Below are positions 31,863-58,193 of a stretch of 64,000 nucleotides of DNA, one piece after another. Numbering within the stretch: position 1 is the stretch's first letter; every line of letters starts with the position of its first letter. Origin of the DNA: Rhodanobacter sp. (GTDB lineage Bacteria; Pseudomonadota; Gammaproteobacteria; Xanthomonadales; Rhodanobacteraceae); NCBI GenBank assembly GCA_004322005.1, contig SCRF01000104.1, forward strand, positions 1-64,000, in the 5' to 3' direction. A model generated the notes under the pieces. That model saw only the letters and a program-made list of their open reading frames with translations, was not told the origin of the DNA and searched no databases. Position numbers and translations under genes: made by a program.

Positions 31863-32909
31863 TCAGAACGTCATGTCGAACGCCACCTCGCCCTCGACGC
31901 CGATCTGGTACGCCGATACGCGGCGCTCGAAGAAATTGGCGAGCTCCTGCACGTCCTGCAGATCCATGAAGTCGAACGGGTTGCTGGTGCCGTATTTTTT
32001 CGGCATGTCGAGCTGGACGAAGCGCTGGTCGGCGCAGTATTGAAGGTACTGGCGCATCTCCTTTGGCGACAGGCCGCTGACGCCGCCGGAAAGCACATCT
32101 TCCGCAAAGCGGGTTTCGCAGTCGATCGCCTCTTCCATCATGGCCTCGACCTGCGCACGCATGGCGTCGTCGAACAGTTCGGGTTCCTGCTCGCGTGCGG
32201 TACGCACGACCTCGAACGCGAACGCCATGTGCCCGCTCTCGTCGCGGAACACCCAGTTGGTGCCGGCCGCCAGGCCGTGCAGCAAACCGCGCGAGCGCAG
32301 AAAGTAGACGTAGGCGAACGCGGCGTAGAAGAACAGGCCCTCGATGCAGGCGGCAAAACAGATCAGGTTGAGCAGGAACTGCCGGCGATGCTCGCGCGAC
32401 TCCAGCCGGGACAGATTCTGGATCGAGTCGATCCACTTGAAACAGAACTCGCCCTTGGCACGGATCGAGGGGATGTTCTCGATCGCCGCGAACGCCTTGT
32501 TGCGGTCGGCCGGATCGGGAATGTAGGTGTCGAGCAGGGTGAGATAGAACTGCACGTGCAGCGCTTCCTCGTACAGCTGGCGCGACAGGTACATGCGCGC
32601 CTCGGGCGCATTGATGTGCTGGTACAGGTTCAGTACCAGGTTGTTCGACACGATGGAGTCGCCGGTGGCGAAAAACGCCACCAGACGCTGGATCAGATGG
32701 CGGTCGGCCGGCGACATCTTCGACGCCAGATCGCGGGTGTCCATCGAAAAGTCCACCTCCTCCACGGTCCAGGTGTTCCTGATCGCATTGCGGTACATCT
32801 CGTAGAACACCGGGTAGCGCATCGGGCGCAGGGTCAGTTCGAAGCCGGGGTCGAGGAGGCGAGGAGTGAGTGAAGAGGAGTGAGAAGTGAGAGATGATGT
32901 TCCGGACAT
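31863..32909 (-). CDS. nrdB: Class Ia ribonucleotide reductase, beta subunit
   Basis: A 348-residue radical-generating subunit. The diiron ligands and radical Tyr are recognisable: EEALHVQFY gives Glu, His at +3 and Tyr at +7, as Glu115/His118/Tyr122 in E. coli. WTVEEVDFSMDTRDL holds the first acidic ligand region, and RDESGHMAFAFEVV the second Glu-x2-His. The C-terminus (QIGVEGEVAFDMTF) is the docking tail. I chose ATG 32909 (AGGA upstream) over 32927. Residues 5-17 (SLTSHSSSLTPRL) are encoded by a dispersed repeat and are extra relative to family members. It is separated from nrdA by an oppositely oriented GIY-YIG gene. Confidence 0.96.
   Translation of the reverse strand: MSGTSSLTSHSSSLTPRLLDPGFELTLRPMRYPVFYEMYRNAIRNTWTVEEVDFSMDTRDLASKMSPADRHLIQRLVAFFATGDSIVSNNLVLNLYQHINAPEARMYLSRQLYEEALHVQFYLTLLDTYIPDPADRNKAFAAIENIPSIRAKGEFCFKWIDSIQNLSRLESREHRRQFLLNLICFAACIEGLFFYAAFAYVYFLRSRGLLHGLAAGTNWVFRDESGHMAFAFEVVRTAREQEPELFDDAMRAQVEAMMEEAIDCETRFAEDVLSGGVSGLSPKEMRQYLQYCADQRFVQLDMPKKYGTSNPFDFMDLQDVQELANFFERRVSAYQIGVEGEVAFDMTF
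32861..32901. repeat. Family E repeat forming nrdB 5' end
   Basis: GAGGAGTGAGTGAAGAGGAG-TGAGAAGTGAGAG. The complement (CTCACTTCTCACTCCTCTTC) recurs at 55209-55240 beside ribE, and its inverted copy at 55152-55185. Confidence 0.75.
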
Positions 32910-32961
32910 GGAGGTGTTCCTATGCATTATCGAAAGACGGTGGAGCGCGGAGGATCTTGAT

Positions 32962-33059
32962 CGTCATTCCAGCGAAAGCTGGAATCCAGAGCCTTTCGCC
33001 TACATGACATCGGGTCGAAAGCTGAAGTCACTGGATTCCAGCTTTCGCTGGAATGACGT
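32962..33059. repeat. Family B palindromic repeat, left of GIY-YIG gene
   Basis: Arms CGTCATTCCAGCGAAAGCTG-GAATCCAG and CTGGATTCCAGCTTTCGCTGGAATGACG. Confidence 0.85.
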
Positions 33060-33113
33060 GCGTTTTCATTGATACGTTTGGGCAAACCCGAGTTGCCGGA
33101 ATGGATTCACTGC

Positions 33114-33410
33114 ATGCGAGAACGAAATCCGTGTGTGTACCTCCTTGCCACCCGGCGCAACGGCACGCTGTACGCAGGCGTCACCTCCAACCTGCCGGCG
33201 CGCATCTGGCAGCACCGGAACAACGTAGTCGATGGCTTTACTCAACGTCGTCATGTGCATGACCTCGTCTGGTTCGAGATGCATGAAACGATGGAGTCCG
33301 CGATCACCCGCGAGAAGGCGATCAAGGCGTGGAAGCGAGCGTGGAAGATCGAACTCATCGAGAAATCCAATCCGTATTGGCGGGATCTGTACGTGGAGAT
33401 TTGCGGTTGA
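33114..33410 (+). CDS. GIY-YIG domain nuclease-like protein
   Basis: A 98-residue single-domain protein of the UPF0213/GIY-YIG group. The motif appears as CVYLLATRRNGTLYAGVTSN (VYL and YAGVT standing for GIY and YIG). The conserved Arg is in ARIWQHR and the metal-binding Glu region is WFEMHETMESAITREKAIKA. The C-terminal WKRAWKIELIEKSNPYWRDL is standard. ATG 33114 fits the family start; the region upstream gives only a TTG. It is inserted against the direction of nrdAB between nrdA and nrdB and bounded on each side by a family B palindrome. Possible role in repeat mobility is inference only. Confidence 0.92.
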   Translation: MRERNPCVYLLATRRNGTLYAGVTSNLPARIWQHRNNVVDGFTQRRHVHDLVWFEMHETMESAITREKAIKAWKRAWKIELIEKSNPYWRDLYVEICG

Positions 33411-33426
33411 GCCCCCGTTCCCTCAC

Positions 33427-33511
33427 CGTCATTCCAGCGAACGCTGGAATCCAGAGCCTTTGCTTCTGGACACGCCAGAGTCTCAGGATCCCAGCGTTCG
33501 CTGGGATGACG
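33427..33511. repeat. Family B palindromic repeat, right of GIY-YIG gene
   Basis: Arms GTCATTCCAGCGAACGCTGG-AATCCAGAG and GATCCCAGCGTTCGCTGGGATGAC, ending nine bases before the nrdA stop codon. Confidence 0.85.
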
Positions 33512-33519
33512 GATGGGGA

Positions 33520-36051
33520 TTACTGGCAAGCTTCGCAGTACTCCGGGTTTTCCAAGGAGCAGAAAACGGCCGCTGTGGCCTTCCCCTGCTCGTCCGCAAC
33601 CGGCGTTGGCGCCGCGGTCATGGCGGCCGCCACCGTGGTCTTGGCGATCTTCGTCGCCGGCCTCGAGCGCAGGTAGTAGGTGGTCTTGAGGCCGGCCTTC
33701 CACGCGTACATGTACATCGAGCTGAGCTGGCCGATGTTCGGGTTTTCCATGAACAGGTTCAGCGACTGGCTCTGGTCGATGTACGCAGCACGCGCGGCGG
33801 CCAGCTCGATCAGGGACTTCTGCGGCAACTCCCACACCGTGCGGTAGATCGCGCGCAGGCGTTGCGGGATCGCCGCAATGCCCTGGATCGATCCCTCGGC
33901 CAGCTTGATCGCGTCGCGCACGTCGCTCGTCCACAGCCCGAGTGCCTTCAATTCGTCGGCCAGGTAGCGGTTCACCTGCAGGAAATCGCCGGACAGCGTC
34001 TCGCGCTTGAACAGGTTGCTGACCTGCGGCTCGATGCATTCGTAGCAGCCGGCGATCGAGGCGATCGTGGCGGTGGGCGCGATCGCGATCAGCAGCGAGT
34101 TGCGCAGGCCGCTCGTCTTGATCCGCTCGCGCAATGCGTCCCATCGCGCGCCGTCGTGCGGCGTGGCATGGGGCCAGTAGTCGAATTGCAGTTCGCCGCT
34201 CGCCGCGCGGCTTTCGGCGAAGCCTGGATGGGCGCCTTCGACTTCGGCCAGCTCGCACGACATGCCCAGTGCATGGAAATAGATCTCTTCGGCGATTCGG
34301 GTGGACAGCTCCAGTGCCTGCGCCGAGTCGAGCGGCAGGCGCAGCTTGAAGAACACATCCTGCAAACCCATCACGCCCAGGCCGACCGGGCGCCATTTCA
34401 TGTTGGCGGTGCGCGCGCCGTCGATCGGATAGTAGTTGAGGTCGATCACCCGGTTGAGCTGGCGCACCGCGGTGCGCACGGTCGAGGCCAGTTTCCCGAA
34501 ATCGAACGCGCCATCGACGACATGTCGCGCCAGGTTGATCGAGCCGAGATTGCATACGGCCGTCTCGCTGGCCGAACTCACCTCCAGAATCTCGGTGCAC
34601 AGGTTGGACAGGTGGATCACGTTGCCGGGCCGGGCGGTCTGGTTGCTGGTGGCGTTGCAGCGGTCCTTGAAGGTCATCCAGCCGTTGCCGGTCTGCGCCA
34701 GCGCGCGCATCATGCGCGCATAAAGTTCGCGGGCCTTGACCCTTTTCACGGCCAGACCGCCCGCTTCGGCTTCGCCGTAGGCGGCATCGAACGTCTCGCC
34801 CCAGCAGTCCACCAGATGCGGCACCGCTTTCGGATCGAACAGCGACCAGTCGCCATCGCGCTCGACCCGGCGCATGAATTCGTCGGGAATCCAGTTGGCG
34901 AAATTGAGGTTGTGCGCGCGGCGGGCATCGTCGCCGGTGTTGTCGCGCAGTTCCAGGAAATCCTCGATGTCGGCGTGCCAGGACTCCAGGTACACGCAGG
35001 CCGCACCCTTGCGCTTGCCGCCCTGGTTCACCGCGGCGACCGACGCGTCCAGCGTCTTCAGCCACGGCAGCAGCCCGTTGGAATGGCCGTTGGTGCCGCG
35101 GATCAGCGAGCCGCGCGAGCGTACCCGCGACCAGGCCAGGCCGATGCCGCCGGCGAACTTGCTGAGCTTGGCCACGTCGGCGTACTTGTCGTAGATCGAC
35201 TCCAGCGAATCGGCCGGCGAGTCGAGCAGGTAGCACGAGCTGAGCTGCTCATGGCAGGTGCCGGCATTGAACAGCGTGGGCGAACTGGCGAGGTACTCCA
35301 GCGACGACAGCAGCCGGTACAGCTCCAGCGTCTCGCCGATTTCGCCGCCGCCCAACGCGCAGGCGATGCGCATGAAGAAATACTGCGGCGTCTCGATCAC
35401 CCACCGCTGTTGCGGGTGGCGCAGCAGGTAGCGGTCGTACACCGTGCGCAAGCCGAAATACTCGAAGCGACGGTTGGCCAGCGGGTCGATCGCGTCGTTG
35501 AGCTTGCGCGCATTGGCGGCCACGAAATCGCGCAGGCGATCGTTGAGGATACCGGACTCGGCGCCGCGGGCGATCGACTGCGAGAAGCTCTGGATCTCCT
35601 GCCCGCTGACCTCCTTGTCGATGAAGGCACCAAGCAGGCGCGCGGCGAGCTGGCCGTATTCGGGTTCTTCGGCGGTCAGCGCAGCGGCGGTGCGGATCGA
35701 CAGCTGGTCCAGCTCGGCCGTGCTGGCACCGTCGTACAGGCCGCCGATGGTCTTCAGCGCCACCCGCAGCGGATCGACCGCATGCAGGCCGTCGGCGCTG
35801 CGCGTCACCGCACGCACGATCTTGTTGACGTCGACGCTCTCCTGCTGGCCGTTGCGCTTGGTCACCCGCATCTGTGCGGGACTGTGCGGCGGGGTCAGCG
35901 TGAACGCCGTCTCGCCGCTCGCCGCGGCGAGAGGTTCGTCCGGCGAACCGGCGGCCGGTTCGGCAGCGGGGTTGGTGGATTCATTCGCACGGACGGCAAT
36001 GCGCTCGTGGTCAGCGGTATCGAGAGGATGCATGGCAACGGTTTCCGGCAT
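33520..36051 (-). CDS. nrdA: Class Ia ribonucleotide reductase, alpha subunit
   Basis: An 843-residue catalytic subunit that reduces ribonucleotides to deoxyribonucleotides. An N-terminal extension of about 60 residues precedes the ATP-cone (MRVTKRNGQQESVDVNKIVR, about 61-150). Active-site elements include SSCYLLDSPADS, NLCTEILEVS (radical Cys with Asn and Glu) and ECIEPQVSNLF. The C-terminal swinging tail CSLENPEYCEACQ has the redox Cys pair at 839 and 842 plus Cys831. Start ATG 36051 gives MPETVAMHPLDTADHERI. Upstream lies a cobalamin riboswitch and NrdR-controlled promoter. This gene itself needs no cobalamin, so a B12-dependent class II reductase elsewhere is implied. Confidence 0.97.
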   Translation of the reverse strand: MPETVAMHPLDTADHERIAVRANESTNPAAEPAAGSPDEPLAAASGETAFTLTPPHSPAQMRVTKRNGQQESVDVNKIVRAVTRSADGLHAVDPLRVALKTIGGLYDGASTAELDQLSIRTAAALTAEEPEYGQLAARLLGAFIDKEVSGQEIQSFSQSIARGAESGILNDRLRDFVAANARKLNDAIDPLANRRFEYFGLRTVYDRYLLRHPQQRWVIETPQYFFMRIACALGGGEIGETLELYRLLSSLEYLASSPTLFNAGTCHEQLSSCYLLDSPADSLESIYDKYADVAKLSKFAGGIGLAWSRVRSRGSLIRGTNGHSNGLLPWLKTLDASVAAVNQGGKRKGAACVYLESWHADIEDFLELRDNTGDDARRAHNLNFANWIPDEFMRRVERDGDWSLFDPKAVPHLVDCWGETFDAAYGEAEAGGLAVKRVKARELYARMMRALAQTGNGWMTFKDRCNATSNQTARPGNVIHLSNLCTEILEVSSASETAVCNLGSINLARHVVDGAFDFGKLASTVRTAVRQLNRVIDLNYYPIDGARTANMKWRPVGLGVMGLQDVFFKLRLPLDSAQALELSTRIAEEIYFHALGMSCELAEVEGAHPGFAESRAASGELQFDYWPHATPHDGARWDALRERIKTSGLRNSLLIAIAPTATIASIAGCYECIEPQVSNLFKRETLSGDFLQVNRYLADELKALGLWTSDVRDAIKLAEGSIQGIAAIPQRLRAIYRTVWELPQKSLIELAAARAAYIDQSQSLNLFMENPNIGQLSSMYMYAWKAGLKTTYYLRSRPATKIAKTTVAAAMTAAPTPVADEQGKATAAVFCSLENPEYCEACQ

Positions 36052-36197
36052 GGAGTCAAACGCCTGCTCCCGCGCGCAGGGCCTGAAGCGATGGATGCCG
36101 TGGCAAAGTCACAGACAGGTGCCCGGCGGCCCCTGTTCTGCGACGAGCTTCCCCACGGAAGCCGTCACTACGCATCGGGACATGCTCGTCCCGATGT

Positions 36198-36358
36198 GTC
36201 GGCAGGTCTTCGGACTTGCGGACGAGGATCTTTCGATCCGCCTACTGCCCATCGCTTCCCAGGCGCCGAGGCCCAGTGCATGTGACGGGTTTCGTTTCCG
36301 CTTTACCGCTGCGGGGCAGTTCCGGACTCACACCGGATTCCCTTTTGAGCCCAACCGA
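36198..36358 (-). promoter_or_regulatory. Cobalamin (AdoCbl) riboswitch
   Basis: Read on the minus strand, the leader has the B12-box features in order: GGGAATCCGGTGTGAGTCCG, then GAACTGCCCCGCAGCGGTAA, then a variable stem, then AAGTCCGAAGACCTGCC. This matches the cobalamin aptamer consensus closely. A strong hairpin (CATCGGGAC...GTCCCGATG, about 36168-36194) follows toward nrdA without a T-run, so control may be at translation or through Rho. B12 binding is expected to shut off nrdAB. Confidence 0.93.
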
Positions 36359-36385
36359 CGATCACGTCTGGATGGGCACCGACGG

Positions 36386-36433
36386 ACACAACATATCGGG
36401 TGTTCAGGCGAAGGTCAACCCAATAGATTGTGC
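36386..36433 (-). promoter_or_regulatory. nrdA promoter bracketed by two NrdR boxes
   Basis: Two 16-bp sites, ACACAACATATCGGGT (36386-36401) and ACCCAATAGATTGTGC (36418-36433), each match the NrdR box consensus at about 13 of 16 positions. Their centres are 32 bp apart, the spacing usual for NrdR box pairs. On the minus strand a -35 TTGACC (36413-36418) and -10 TATGTT (36390-36395) with a 17-base spacer lie between and over the boxes. Binding of NrdR would block RNA polymerase. The start is about 25 bases before the riboswitch. Confidence 0.85.
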
Positions 36434-36640
36434 GCAAGTCGAGGAATCGGCCGTGTGCGACAAGGCTGTTTGGCAGGCGCGACGGGCGGGATTCATGCCG
36501 CTTGGCGGCAATGGCGCCAGGCCGGTGTCTGCCCTTGAAGTCCCGGCCGTGATCAAGCCTGCAAGGGCTAACCACGGTCAGGAGCGGAACTTTCCAAAAA
36601 AGAAATTGCGCTCTGTCGATTCCTCGGATGGGCGTGCGCG

Positions 36641-36902: not shown

Positions 36903-37706
36903 TTATCCCGCGGTCGCAGGTGTTGTGGATACGTCCTTGCGGGTCACCGTCAGAAAGATGACCAGGCCCAGGATCGTGACCAGGAACAGCGCGCTGGTCA
37001 CGACGGTGCCGAGACCCAGGGCACCCTGATTCAAGGGCTGGGACATGAAGTCGCCAATCGATGCGCCGAGCGGACGGGTCAGGATATAGGCGAACCAGAA
37101 CGCAAAGATCGCATTCAATCTGAAGCGCAGATGCGCAAACGCCGCCAGCGCGATCAAGGCTGCGAAGATGAAGGCTGACAACAAATAACCAAGCTGCAGT
37201 TTCTCGGCCACCAGATCTCCCGCGGCCGTGCCCAGTGCAAACGTGAACAGGATCGCCAGCCAGTAGAAGGCTTCCCTGCGTGTCGTGTGAATCGTATGGA
37301 CGGAAAGCGTCTTCTCGCTGGCATACCAGGCCAAGAACGTCACCGTCAGCAGAACGCTGAACACGATGGTGGTCGTGACCAGGGAGACGCCGAAATGGTC
37401 GGTCAGATTATCTGTGATCAAGGTGCCGACAATGCTCAGCAGCACGACGGCGAGCCAGTACGTGCCGGCCACATACTTGCGCGCCTTGAACTGGAAAAAC
37501 AGGGTGGCGATCAACAGGCTTCCCATCAGGTAGGTCGTGTTGGTCAAGCCAAGGTGAAGGTTCACATTCAGGAAATCGGCGAAGGTCTCGCCGACTGTGG
37601 TGCACAGGATCTTGATGATCCAGAAATACAGGGTGATTTCCGGCACCTTGTTGAGCATGGCGCGGGCGGAATATTCGGCGGGACGATTTTCTGGATAACT
37701 GTGCAT
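36903..37706 (-). CDS. COG4705/DUF347-like integral membrane protein
   Basis: A 267-residue protein with about eight transmembrane helices arranged as two similar halves. The repeated feature is a helix with a conserved acidic/glycine stretch: KILCTTVGETFADFLNVNLH near residue 35 and FTFALGTAAGDLVAEKLQLG near residue 160, with related VGTLITDNLTDHFGVS and ILTRPLGASIGDFMSQPLN. This matches the uncharacterised COG4705 family seen in metal-tolerant bacteria. Function not established. ATG 37706 has GAGG eight bases upstream. Stands alone. Confidence 0.82.
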   Translation of the reverse strand: MHSYPENRPAEYSARAMLNKVPEITLYFWIIKILCTTVGETFADFLNVNLHLGLTNTTYLMGSLLIATLFFQFKARKYVAGTYWLAVVLLSIVGTLITDNLTDHFGVSLVTTTIVFSVLLTVTFLAWYASEKTLSVHTIHTTRREAFYWLAILFTFALGTAAGDLVAEKLQLGYLLSAFIFAALIALAAFAHLRFRLNAIFAFWFAYILTRPLGASIGDFMSQPLNQGALGLGTVVTSALFLVTILGLVIFLTVTRKDVSTTPATAG

Positions 37707-57680: not shown

Positions 57681-58193
57681 TCATTTGCCGGCATGTTTGC
57701 CGTCACCGAGCAGCGGCAGCTGCAGGCCGTCCAGTTCCGGCAGGTCGCGTTCGAGTTTCTCGATTTCTTCGCGGAACGCCTGCATGTCCTCGAATTTGCG
57801 GTAGACCGAAGCGAAACGCACGTAGGCGACCTGGTCGAGCTTTTTCAGTTCACGCATCACCAGCTCGCCGAGCTGGCGCGAGGGCACCTCGCGCTCGCCG
57901 CTCTTGCGCAGGTCGTTGATGATGGTGCGCACCGAGCTGTCCACGTCGCGGCTGGGCACGGGCCGCTTCTGCAGCGCGCGCTCGAAACTCACCCGCAGCT
58001 TGCGCTCGTCGAACACCTCGCGCCGCTCGCCGCTCTTGACGATCGCCGGCAACTTCAGCTCGGCGGTCTCGTAGGTGTTGAAGCGTTCGCCGCACTGCGG
58101 GCACTCGCGCCGGCGCCGCACGGTGCTGCCGTCCTCGGTCAGACGCGAGTCGATCACGCGGGTGTCTTCGTGCTGGCAGAAGGGGCAATGCAT
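57681..58193 (-). CDS. nrdR: Transcriptional repressor NrdR
   Basis: A 170-residue regulator of ribonucleotide reductase genes. The N-terminal zinc ribbon is [20 protein letters not shown] followed by [18 protein letters not shown] (four Cys in two CxxC pairs). The ATP-cone spans about 50-140 ([20 protein letters not shown]), which senses ATP/dATP. Family length is about 150; the C-terminal tail rich in Glu and Lys is slightly longer here. It lies between glyA and ribD, a common arrangement. Its target boxes are visible upstream of nrdA at 36386-36433. Confidence 0.97.

Follow-up and report, generated by a model that had tools for sequence, protein, structure and literature searches.

The nrdAB locus and its promoter

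The window, by which we mean the whole 64,000-nucleotide stretch of Rhodanobacter DNA analyzed here, carries on its minus strand the two genes of a class I ribonucleotide reductase: nrdA (33520..36033), which encodes an alpha chain with an ATP-cone, and nrdB (31863..32927; PF00268, 265.5 bits), which encodes the beta chain and lies about 590 bp past nrdA. A first-pass annotation had described the enzyme as class I and cobalamin-independent, and the profile searches agree: NrdA scores 715.9 bits against the class I model TIGR02506 (cut-off 341.05) and 343.3 bits, under the cut-off of 399.95, against the NrdJ model TIGR02504, and NrdB is encoded nearby. The nearest named NrdA, that of Rhodanobacter sp. 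FW104-R8, is 87% identical. The nrdR gene that had been placed in the same window is also found, at 57681..58193 on the minus strand, and encodes a Zn-ribbon plus ATP-cone protein (TIGR00244, 199.6 bits; cut-off 124.65).

The longest ORF of nrdA begins at 36051; this in-frame ATG was rejected as the start because several relatives do not have it. The ATG at 36033 (MHPLDT) is the more probable start, and the NrdA proteins of relatives begin with MQPLDT or MQALDT, usually behind GGAG or GGGAG. The surroundings hold further features: a GIY-YIG ORF (33069-33410, plus strand) between nrdA and nrdB (32962-33519), with imperfect palindromic repeats of the CGTCATTCCAGCGAA type on both of its sides; an ORF upstream of nrdA (36903-37706, minus strand) with four DUF347 repeats (PF03988, 209.8 bits); and an FMN riboswitch (RF00050, 72.5 bits against a gathering threshold of 66.2) at 56335-56130, which like nrdR is on the minus strand and follows it about 1.3 kb downstream.

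On the minus strand, the elements follow one another in transcription order as NrdR box 1, the -35 hexamer, NrdR box 2 with the -10 hexamer, the cobalamin aptamer, a platform of about 150 nt, nrdA, and nrdB. The promoter pattern search returned TTGACC (36418-36413) and, after a 17-nt spacer, TATGTT (36395-36390), letters that were rechecked; this is the only sigma-70-like site in 35950-36550, where shuffled DNA yields 0.1 +/- 0.3. Because the -10 hexamer sits at 36395-36390, transcription would start near 36383, at the first base of GUCGG in the 5' strand of aptamer P1. The two NrdR boxes, GCACAATCTATTGGGT (36433-36418) and ACCCGATATGTTGTGT (36401-36386), both on the minus strand, are spaced 32 bp start to start, with 16 bp between them. 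The first-pass annotation had them bracketing the promoter; its 32-bp spacing and promoter letters hold, whereas the boxes overlap the promoter rather than simply lying on either side of it, since the final base of box 1 is the first base of the -35 hexamer and box 2 contains the -10 hexamer.

Scored with a rough consensus matrix, this pair is the best in the 64-kb window, at 30.0 vs 16.3 for the top pair that includes neither box (31-33 bp spacing). A pair at 32 or 33 bp is present among the best four matches per leader in 55 of the 57 leaders counted by eye (the window and L007-L062), the remaining two being L057 and the short L023. The arrangement is that of an NrdR regulon, with two boxes separated by an inner distance of about 15-16 bp at a promoter and nrdR in the genome; the NrdR box pairs of E. 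coli are given an inner distance of 15 bp in the available part of PMC12176259.

The cobalamin aptamer and its leader

The leader matches RF00174 from 36398 to 36184 on the minus strand with 107.4 bits (gathering 31.5; E 6.4e-26), and all model positions (1-189) are covered, in agreement with the full cobalamin aptamer that had been announced for this transcript. Read from the sequence, its helix P1 is formed by 36383-36378 with 36202-36198, its loop L5 (CCCCGC) lies at 36316-36311, and its B12 box at 36216-36201. The span originally assigned to the whole control region, 36198-36433, takes in the aptamer, promoter, and boxes; it stops at the 3' end of P1 (36198) and thereby omits the expression platform at 36197-36034.

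This platform begins with a hairpin adjoining P1 (36173..36196; CATCGGGAC-GAGCAT-GTCCCGATG), identified by eye, whose sequence differs among relatives with its pairing maintained. It is followed by a P13-like hairpin (36142..36166), the loop of which (36156-36151) is complementary to L5 and is proposed to engage it in an L5-L13 kissing interaction. Such complementarity is typical of kissing-type cobalamin switches. The L13 loop reads GTGGGG in the window vs GCGGGG in most aligned relatives; covariation is silent on the proposed interaction because L5 is invariant across the alignment. Further downstream, a conserved hairpin, CCTGC-GCGCGGGA-GCAGG (36063..36080), precedes nrdA in most Rhodanobacteraceae leaders read; its stem bases differ in Luteibacter L021, and it was not seen in the Luteibacter leaders L024 and L042. 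It would be enclosed by a proposed ribosome-site helix (36046..36100), in which CGGCAT (36100-36095) pairs with ATGCCG (36051-36046). In 34 aligned Rhodanobacteraceae leaders, taken from the 50 available, no variation occurs in L5, in the B12 box, or in much of the core, and the intervening hairpins drift. The anchor-based comparison covered 46 of the 50; L013, L014, L024, and L042 were dropped as their anchors were missing.

The class II reductase and the other cobalamin switches of the genome

From the B12 switch on nrdA, the first-pass annotation had predicted a class II nrdJ in this genome, and the genome-wide search that it called for found one on contig C53 (G000:C53, start about 25429), with 564 bits against TIGR02504 over two stretches (cut-off 399.95). 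The gene (L087:5430-8909) is a 1159-aa frame without stops that carries a 440-aa insert. The insert begins with Cys, ends with His-Asn ahead of a Cys, and matches LAGLIDADG_3 (37.1 bits); its score with Intein_splicing, 33.6, is just below the cut-off of 35.8. By these signs, it would be an intein, located at an early site after LKAG and before CGIGYEF; in many relatives, the NrdJ insert lies elsewhere instead, near model position 281. A possible intein in the NrdJ of Rhodanobacter fulvus is noted in the accessible text of the genome paper (PMC4465626).

Upstream of nrdJ, a pair of NrdR boxes is again spaced by 32 bp, with a weak second box, and such a pair is present in all 11 nrdJ upstream regions examined, this one included. 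The whole-genome search with RF00174 gave three matches, before nrdA, a BtuB-type receptor, and metE, and none before nrdJ. The receptor is a TonB-dependent B12 receptor that scores 595 bits with TIGR01779, just under the cut-off of 599.7, and metE scores 1049.6 bits with TIGR01371, so that the three switch targets comprise B12 uptake plus two B12-independent enzymes. The metE switch (L089) also has a downstream loop, CCGCGGGG, complementary to its L5. B12-binding domains occur at three sites in the genome, one of which is probably MetH. The corrin-ring marker CobI/CbiL is matched only weakly (58.6 vs a cut-off of 163.25 bits), and the cell may therefore rely on imported B12, as judged from one marker in a 96%-complete genome.

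Co-occurrence of switch and nrdJ among relatives

Among 35 other Rhodanobacter genomes searched, the switch lies upstream of nrdA in all 32 with a detected nrdA, and nrdJ exceeds the cut-off in 32 of the 35, with sub-cut-off fragments only in G019, G029, and G034. The same and a second family contributed 40 genomes, 38 of them with a class I nrdA: nrdJ and switch occur together in 29, nrdJ alone in one (G203), neither in eight, and the switch alone in none. Among 21 genomes taken from the order's other families, read by eye, five have both (G037, G038, G040, G042, and G048), two have nrdJ and a second reductase match with no switch nearby (G041 and G050), two have neither (G043 and G053), and 12 have no clear class I match.

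The NrdA tree was built from 79 rows, namely the window, 58 of the 80 loci of the first relatives' set, and 20 further loci; L023, whose upstream DNA was too short, was left out together with 21 loci from outside the order, and L057 and L070, which likewise do not belong to the order, were kept in. Switch and nrdJ are both present in 56 rows and both absent in 19, where L033 is counted as nrdJ-positive on a partial sub-cut-off match of 386.1 bits. The exceptions are two rows with the switch and no detected nrdJ (L025 and L059, both MAGs) and two with nrdJ and no switch (L040 and G203, the latter being the genome of L137), both of the Stenotrophomonas group. L052 and L064 of the same group have an intact aptamer and nrdJ. 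The Fisher p of the association is very small, with the genomes being related. Three changes of the switch and seven of nrdJ map onto the tree, and the independent-pairs sign test, run on a tree with wrong frames for L144-L147, gave two pairs in the same direction, none in the opposite direction, and four without difference (p 0.5); the tree with corrected frames for these loci again gave three and seven changes. Outside the tree set, six of 21 loci have the switch by pattern, and all six have nrdJ. Outside the order, nrdJ does not imply a switch: nine of the ten evaluable switch-less loci have nrdJ, loci with <150 bp upstream (L063, L065, L066, L073, and L077) not being counted.

Several reductase inventories in these genomes are unusual in their own right. 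A divergent second class I NrdA type occurs in the sister family (L141-L146, from G173, G208, G246, G259, G231, and G217); it corresponds to PRK09209, as checked for L141 and L142, and is accompanied by the same B12 switch and nrdJ in five of the six genomes, G173 having neither. In genus g13, six of the seven nrdJ-lacking genomes (G056, G155, G162, G188, G193, and G236) have, in addition to nrdA, an extra reductase match of the split kind, and RF00174 gives no match in its vicinity in these six. G030, a Rhodanobacter, has two nrdJ copies over the cut-off (C1:470464-473493 and C1:2055485-2057659). In G261 and G197, nrdJ is present and a class I nrdA was not detected; these two therefore may depend on B12 for DNA synthesis.

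Decayed switches

In most nrdJ-lacking relatives examined, the switch is decayed or absent. The switch-less Stenotrophomonas leaders retain the promoter and both NrdR boxes. L043 and L045 lack the core but still have P1, the L13 hairpin, and a B12 box that is damaged; L050 and L040 retain less than these two, and the S. maltophilia-like leaders retain the surroundings only. In G173 (L141), which belongs to another genus, the aptamer and the L13 loop are independently damaged and the promoter is kept; its nrdA is of the second class I type (PRK09209, 1502 bits; NrdJ model 279, under the cut-off).

Since the covariance search misses these decayed aptamers, the identification of remnants rests on alignment and shuffles. 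No RF00174 match was obtained at E up to 10 in L045, L050, L141, L137, and L039, nor at gathering in L037, L039, L040, L043-L046, L048, L050, and L051. Nine leaders (L039, L040, L043, L045, L046, L050, L051, L137, and L141) were compared with the 3' halves of two intact leaders, L053 and L064. L043, L045, and L141 align to both better than 200/200 dinucleotide shuffles, and L040, L050, and L137 beat 200/200 shuffles against L053 but not against L064; the S. maltophilia-like L039, L046, and L051 did not beat the shuffles against either.

Remnants are present in L040 and L137 although both genomes have nrdJ, which weakens a strict rule. The NrdJ proteins of L040 and G203 share a long branch that falls outside the remaining rows of the Stenotrophomonas group, a position that fits re-acquisition of nrdJ and fast drift alike. 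The leaders nevertheless suggest that, where nrdJ is lost, the aptamer mostly decays in place, and because remnants persist, we infer that the direction was loss rather than gain.

The output step

On the nrdA strand, 35950-36550 contains no T-tailed terminator, and the sole terminator-like match in this interval is on the opposite strand. Pairings within the platform were assessed by comparing cognate with permuted partner leaders (5000 permutations), a duplex test in which relatedness is not removed and which therefore provides support rather than proof. For the ribosome-site helix, the upstream partner was a 24-nt segment whose end lies 8 nt ahead of the conserved hairpin; 0/5000 permutations were as good as its cognate pairing with the last 24 nt (3/5000 with the wider region), and the helix forms in the predicted fold of 36200-36020. 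The segment before the conserved hairpin and the 3' flank of that hairpin likewise gave 0/5000. For a helix closing the L13 domain, formed between the stretches that precede the L13 hairpin and the conserved hairpin, 23/5000 permutations were as good, and the signal is weak in two subsets (62 and 255), the latter being Dyella/Luteibacter (n=10; 255/5000). The ribosome-site helix is unsupported in the same Dyella/Luteibacter subset (3275 and 1407 of 5000), and two control pairings were null. A loop-loop pairing of the L13 hairpin with the conserved hairpin, which share CGCGGG in most relatives, was tried and rejected, cognate partners being no better than permuted ones (4983/5000 as good).

Two of these helices have crossing partners along the sequence and could hardly form at the same time, a property that fits a translational switch. 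Translation is accordingly put forward as the most likely output step, at about even chances.

Proposed mechanism and alternative explanations

We consider it highly likely that nrdAB is a B12-gated spare reductase, controlled by NrdR and a B12 switch, with NrdJ used when B12 is present; ligand binding, the sign of the effect, the output step, and NrdR binding are deduced from sequence. NrdR would set both reductases through the tandem boxes, and both would therefore answer to the dATP/ATP state. At nrdA, the boxes extend over the -10 hexamer and the edge of the -35 hexamer, so that NrdR would block polymerase there. A second gate would act on the B12-independent class Ia nrdAB alone, the mRNA of which would start with an adenosylcobalamin aptamer. 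When B12 is present, the bound aptamer would dock L5 on L13, the output of nrdAB would fall, and AdoCbl-dependent NrdJ would provide deoxynucleotides; when B12 is short, the gate would open and NrdAB would take over, such that class Ia would be used only under this condition. The gate itself would be translational, with the ribosome-site helix competing with the helix that closes the L13 domain.

The same regulation could operate through another output step, in which the switch ends transcription at a Rho-dependent or unusual terminator instead of blocking translation, a version that we regard as possible though less probable. The leader is long, with over 150 nt from aptamer to start codon, and much nrdAB transcription in P. 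acnes apparently halts before the first gene, according to the available part of PMC3848588; against this stand the nrdA strand of 35950-36550, which has no T-tailed hairpin, and the ribosome-site pairing, which is supported in Rhodanobacter.

Two further explanations dispense with the proposed link or reduce its role. If the switch were an inherited leftover, switch and nrdJ would both be ancestral and would track the phylogeny with no working connection, as the small number of independent changes (three for the switch among 79 rows; sign test p 0.5) and the broken switch in two nrdJ-bearing genomes (L040 and G203) would allow. Such passive inheritance is very improbable: L5, the B12 box, and much of the core do not vary in the 34 aligned Rhodanobacteraceae leaders despite drifting hairpins, and in the nrdJ-lacking lineages the aptamer breaks and the adjoining promoter and NrdR boxes remain. 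Class II ribonucleotide reductases are oxygen-independent, and the wiring could accordingly be one of oxygen or stress, with class II serving low oxygen and the B12 switch just fine-tuning nrdAB; the accessible text on P. aeruginosa likewise describes the class II enzyme as oxygen-independent (PMC5962746). We give this account marginally less weight still, as the sensor on nrdA is one for cobalamin, metE has the same sensor, and oxygen does not explain the pairing.

Returning to the B12-gated spare reductase, a joint interpretation of its history and its platform is favored by a narrow balance. The nrdA leader would be, across the order, a readable record of B12-run DNA synthesis, in which nrdJ is lost and the aptamer then decays inside an intact NrdR-controlled promoter, at least twice with visible remnants (Stenotrophomonas and G173) and perhaps a third time without (L054/L055); the Rhodanobacter platform would consist of competing helices over the ribosome site around the hairpin with the CGCGGGA loop.

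Relation to known systems and significance

In Streptomyces, coenzyme B12 reportedly controls the class Ia nrd genes, nrdABS, via a riboswitch (the 2006 work of Borovok); the likeness lies in a B12 riboswitch on class Ia genes, and the difference in the actinobacterial host. The closer counterpart is nrdAB of Propionibacterium (Cutibacterium) acnes, for which the available part of PMC3848588 describes an NrdR box over the promoter, a cobalamin riboswitch in the 5' UTR, and a switch-less nrdJ elsewhere in the genome. As far as that text goes, P. acnes nrdAB has one NrdR box, whereas Rhodanobacter nrdA has two; nrdR is co-transcribed with nrdJ, whereas here the two genes lie on different contigs, nrdR on that of nrdA; and early termination is reported, whereas no terminator-like site is present here on the nrdA strand (PMC3848588). 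The P. acnes and Streptomyces cases together support the direction of control. In delta-proteobacteria with NrdJ, B12 elements precede nrdDG, with the same logic proposed in the accessible text of PMC545781; the gated reductase there is the class III NrdDG, in contrast to the class Ia NrdAB here. Within the present genome, the metE switch (L089) is a parallel on a different gene, with a B12-independent isozyme behind RF00174 and a downstream loop complementary to L5.

Repression of B12-independent isozymes by B12 elements where a B12-dependent isozyme is present is established, according to the available parts of PMC545781 and PMC2211319, and "isozymes of B12-dependent enzymes" are a listed target class in that of PMC3766115. 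The Rhodanobacter genome shows this arrangement, with B12-independent nrdAB behind the switch and class II nrdJ in the same genome. The regulatory logic is thus already known, and since it has been described for P. acnes nrdAB (PMC3848588, in the part available), the Rhodanobacter case adds one more member to this kind; what is fresh here is the set of decayed switches. A literature search that covered few subscription papers returned nothing on this leader or on decayed switches; Vitreschak 2003 and Borovok 2006 may list members of the order.

The observation in the first-pass annotation was real and correctly read, and the leader very probably does what was proposed for it. The predicted class II partner is present, and the case extends B12-gated choice of reductase to the genus Rhodanobacter and its relatives. 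Those relatives that lack nrdJ amount to a natural experiment on the purpose of the switch: as the boxes and promoter persist while the aptamer breaks, the proposition that the switch exists to choose between reductases becomes testable by comparison and with simple reporters.
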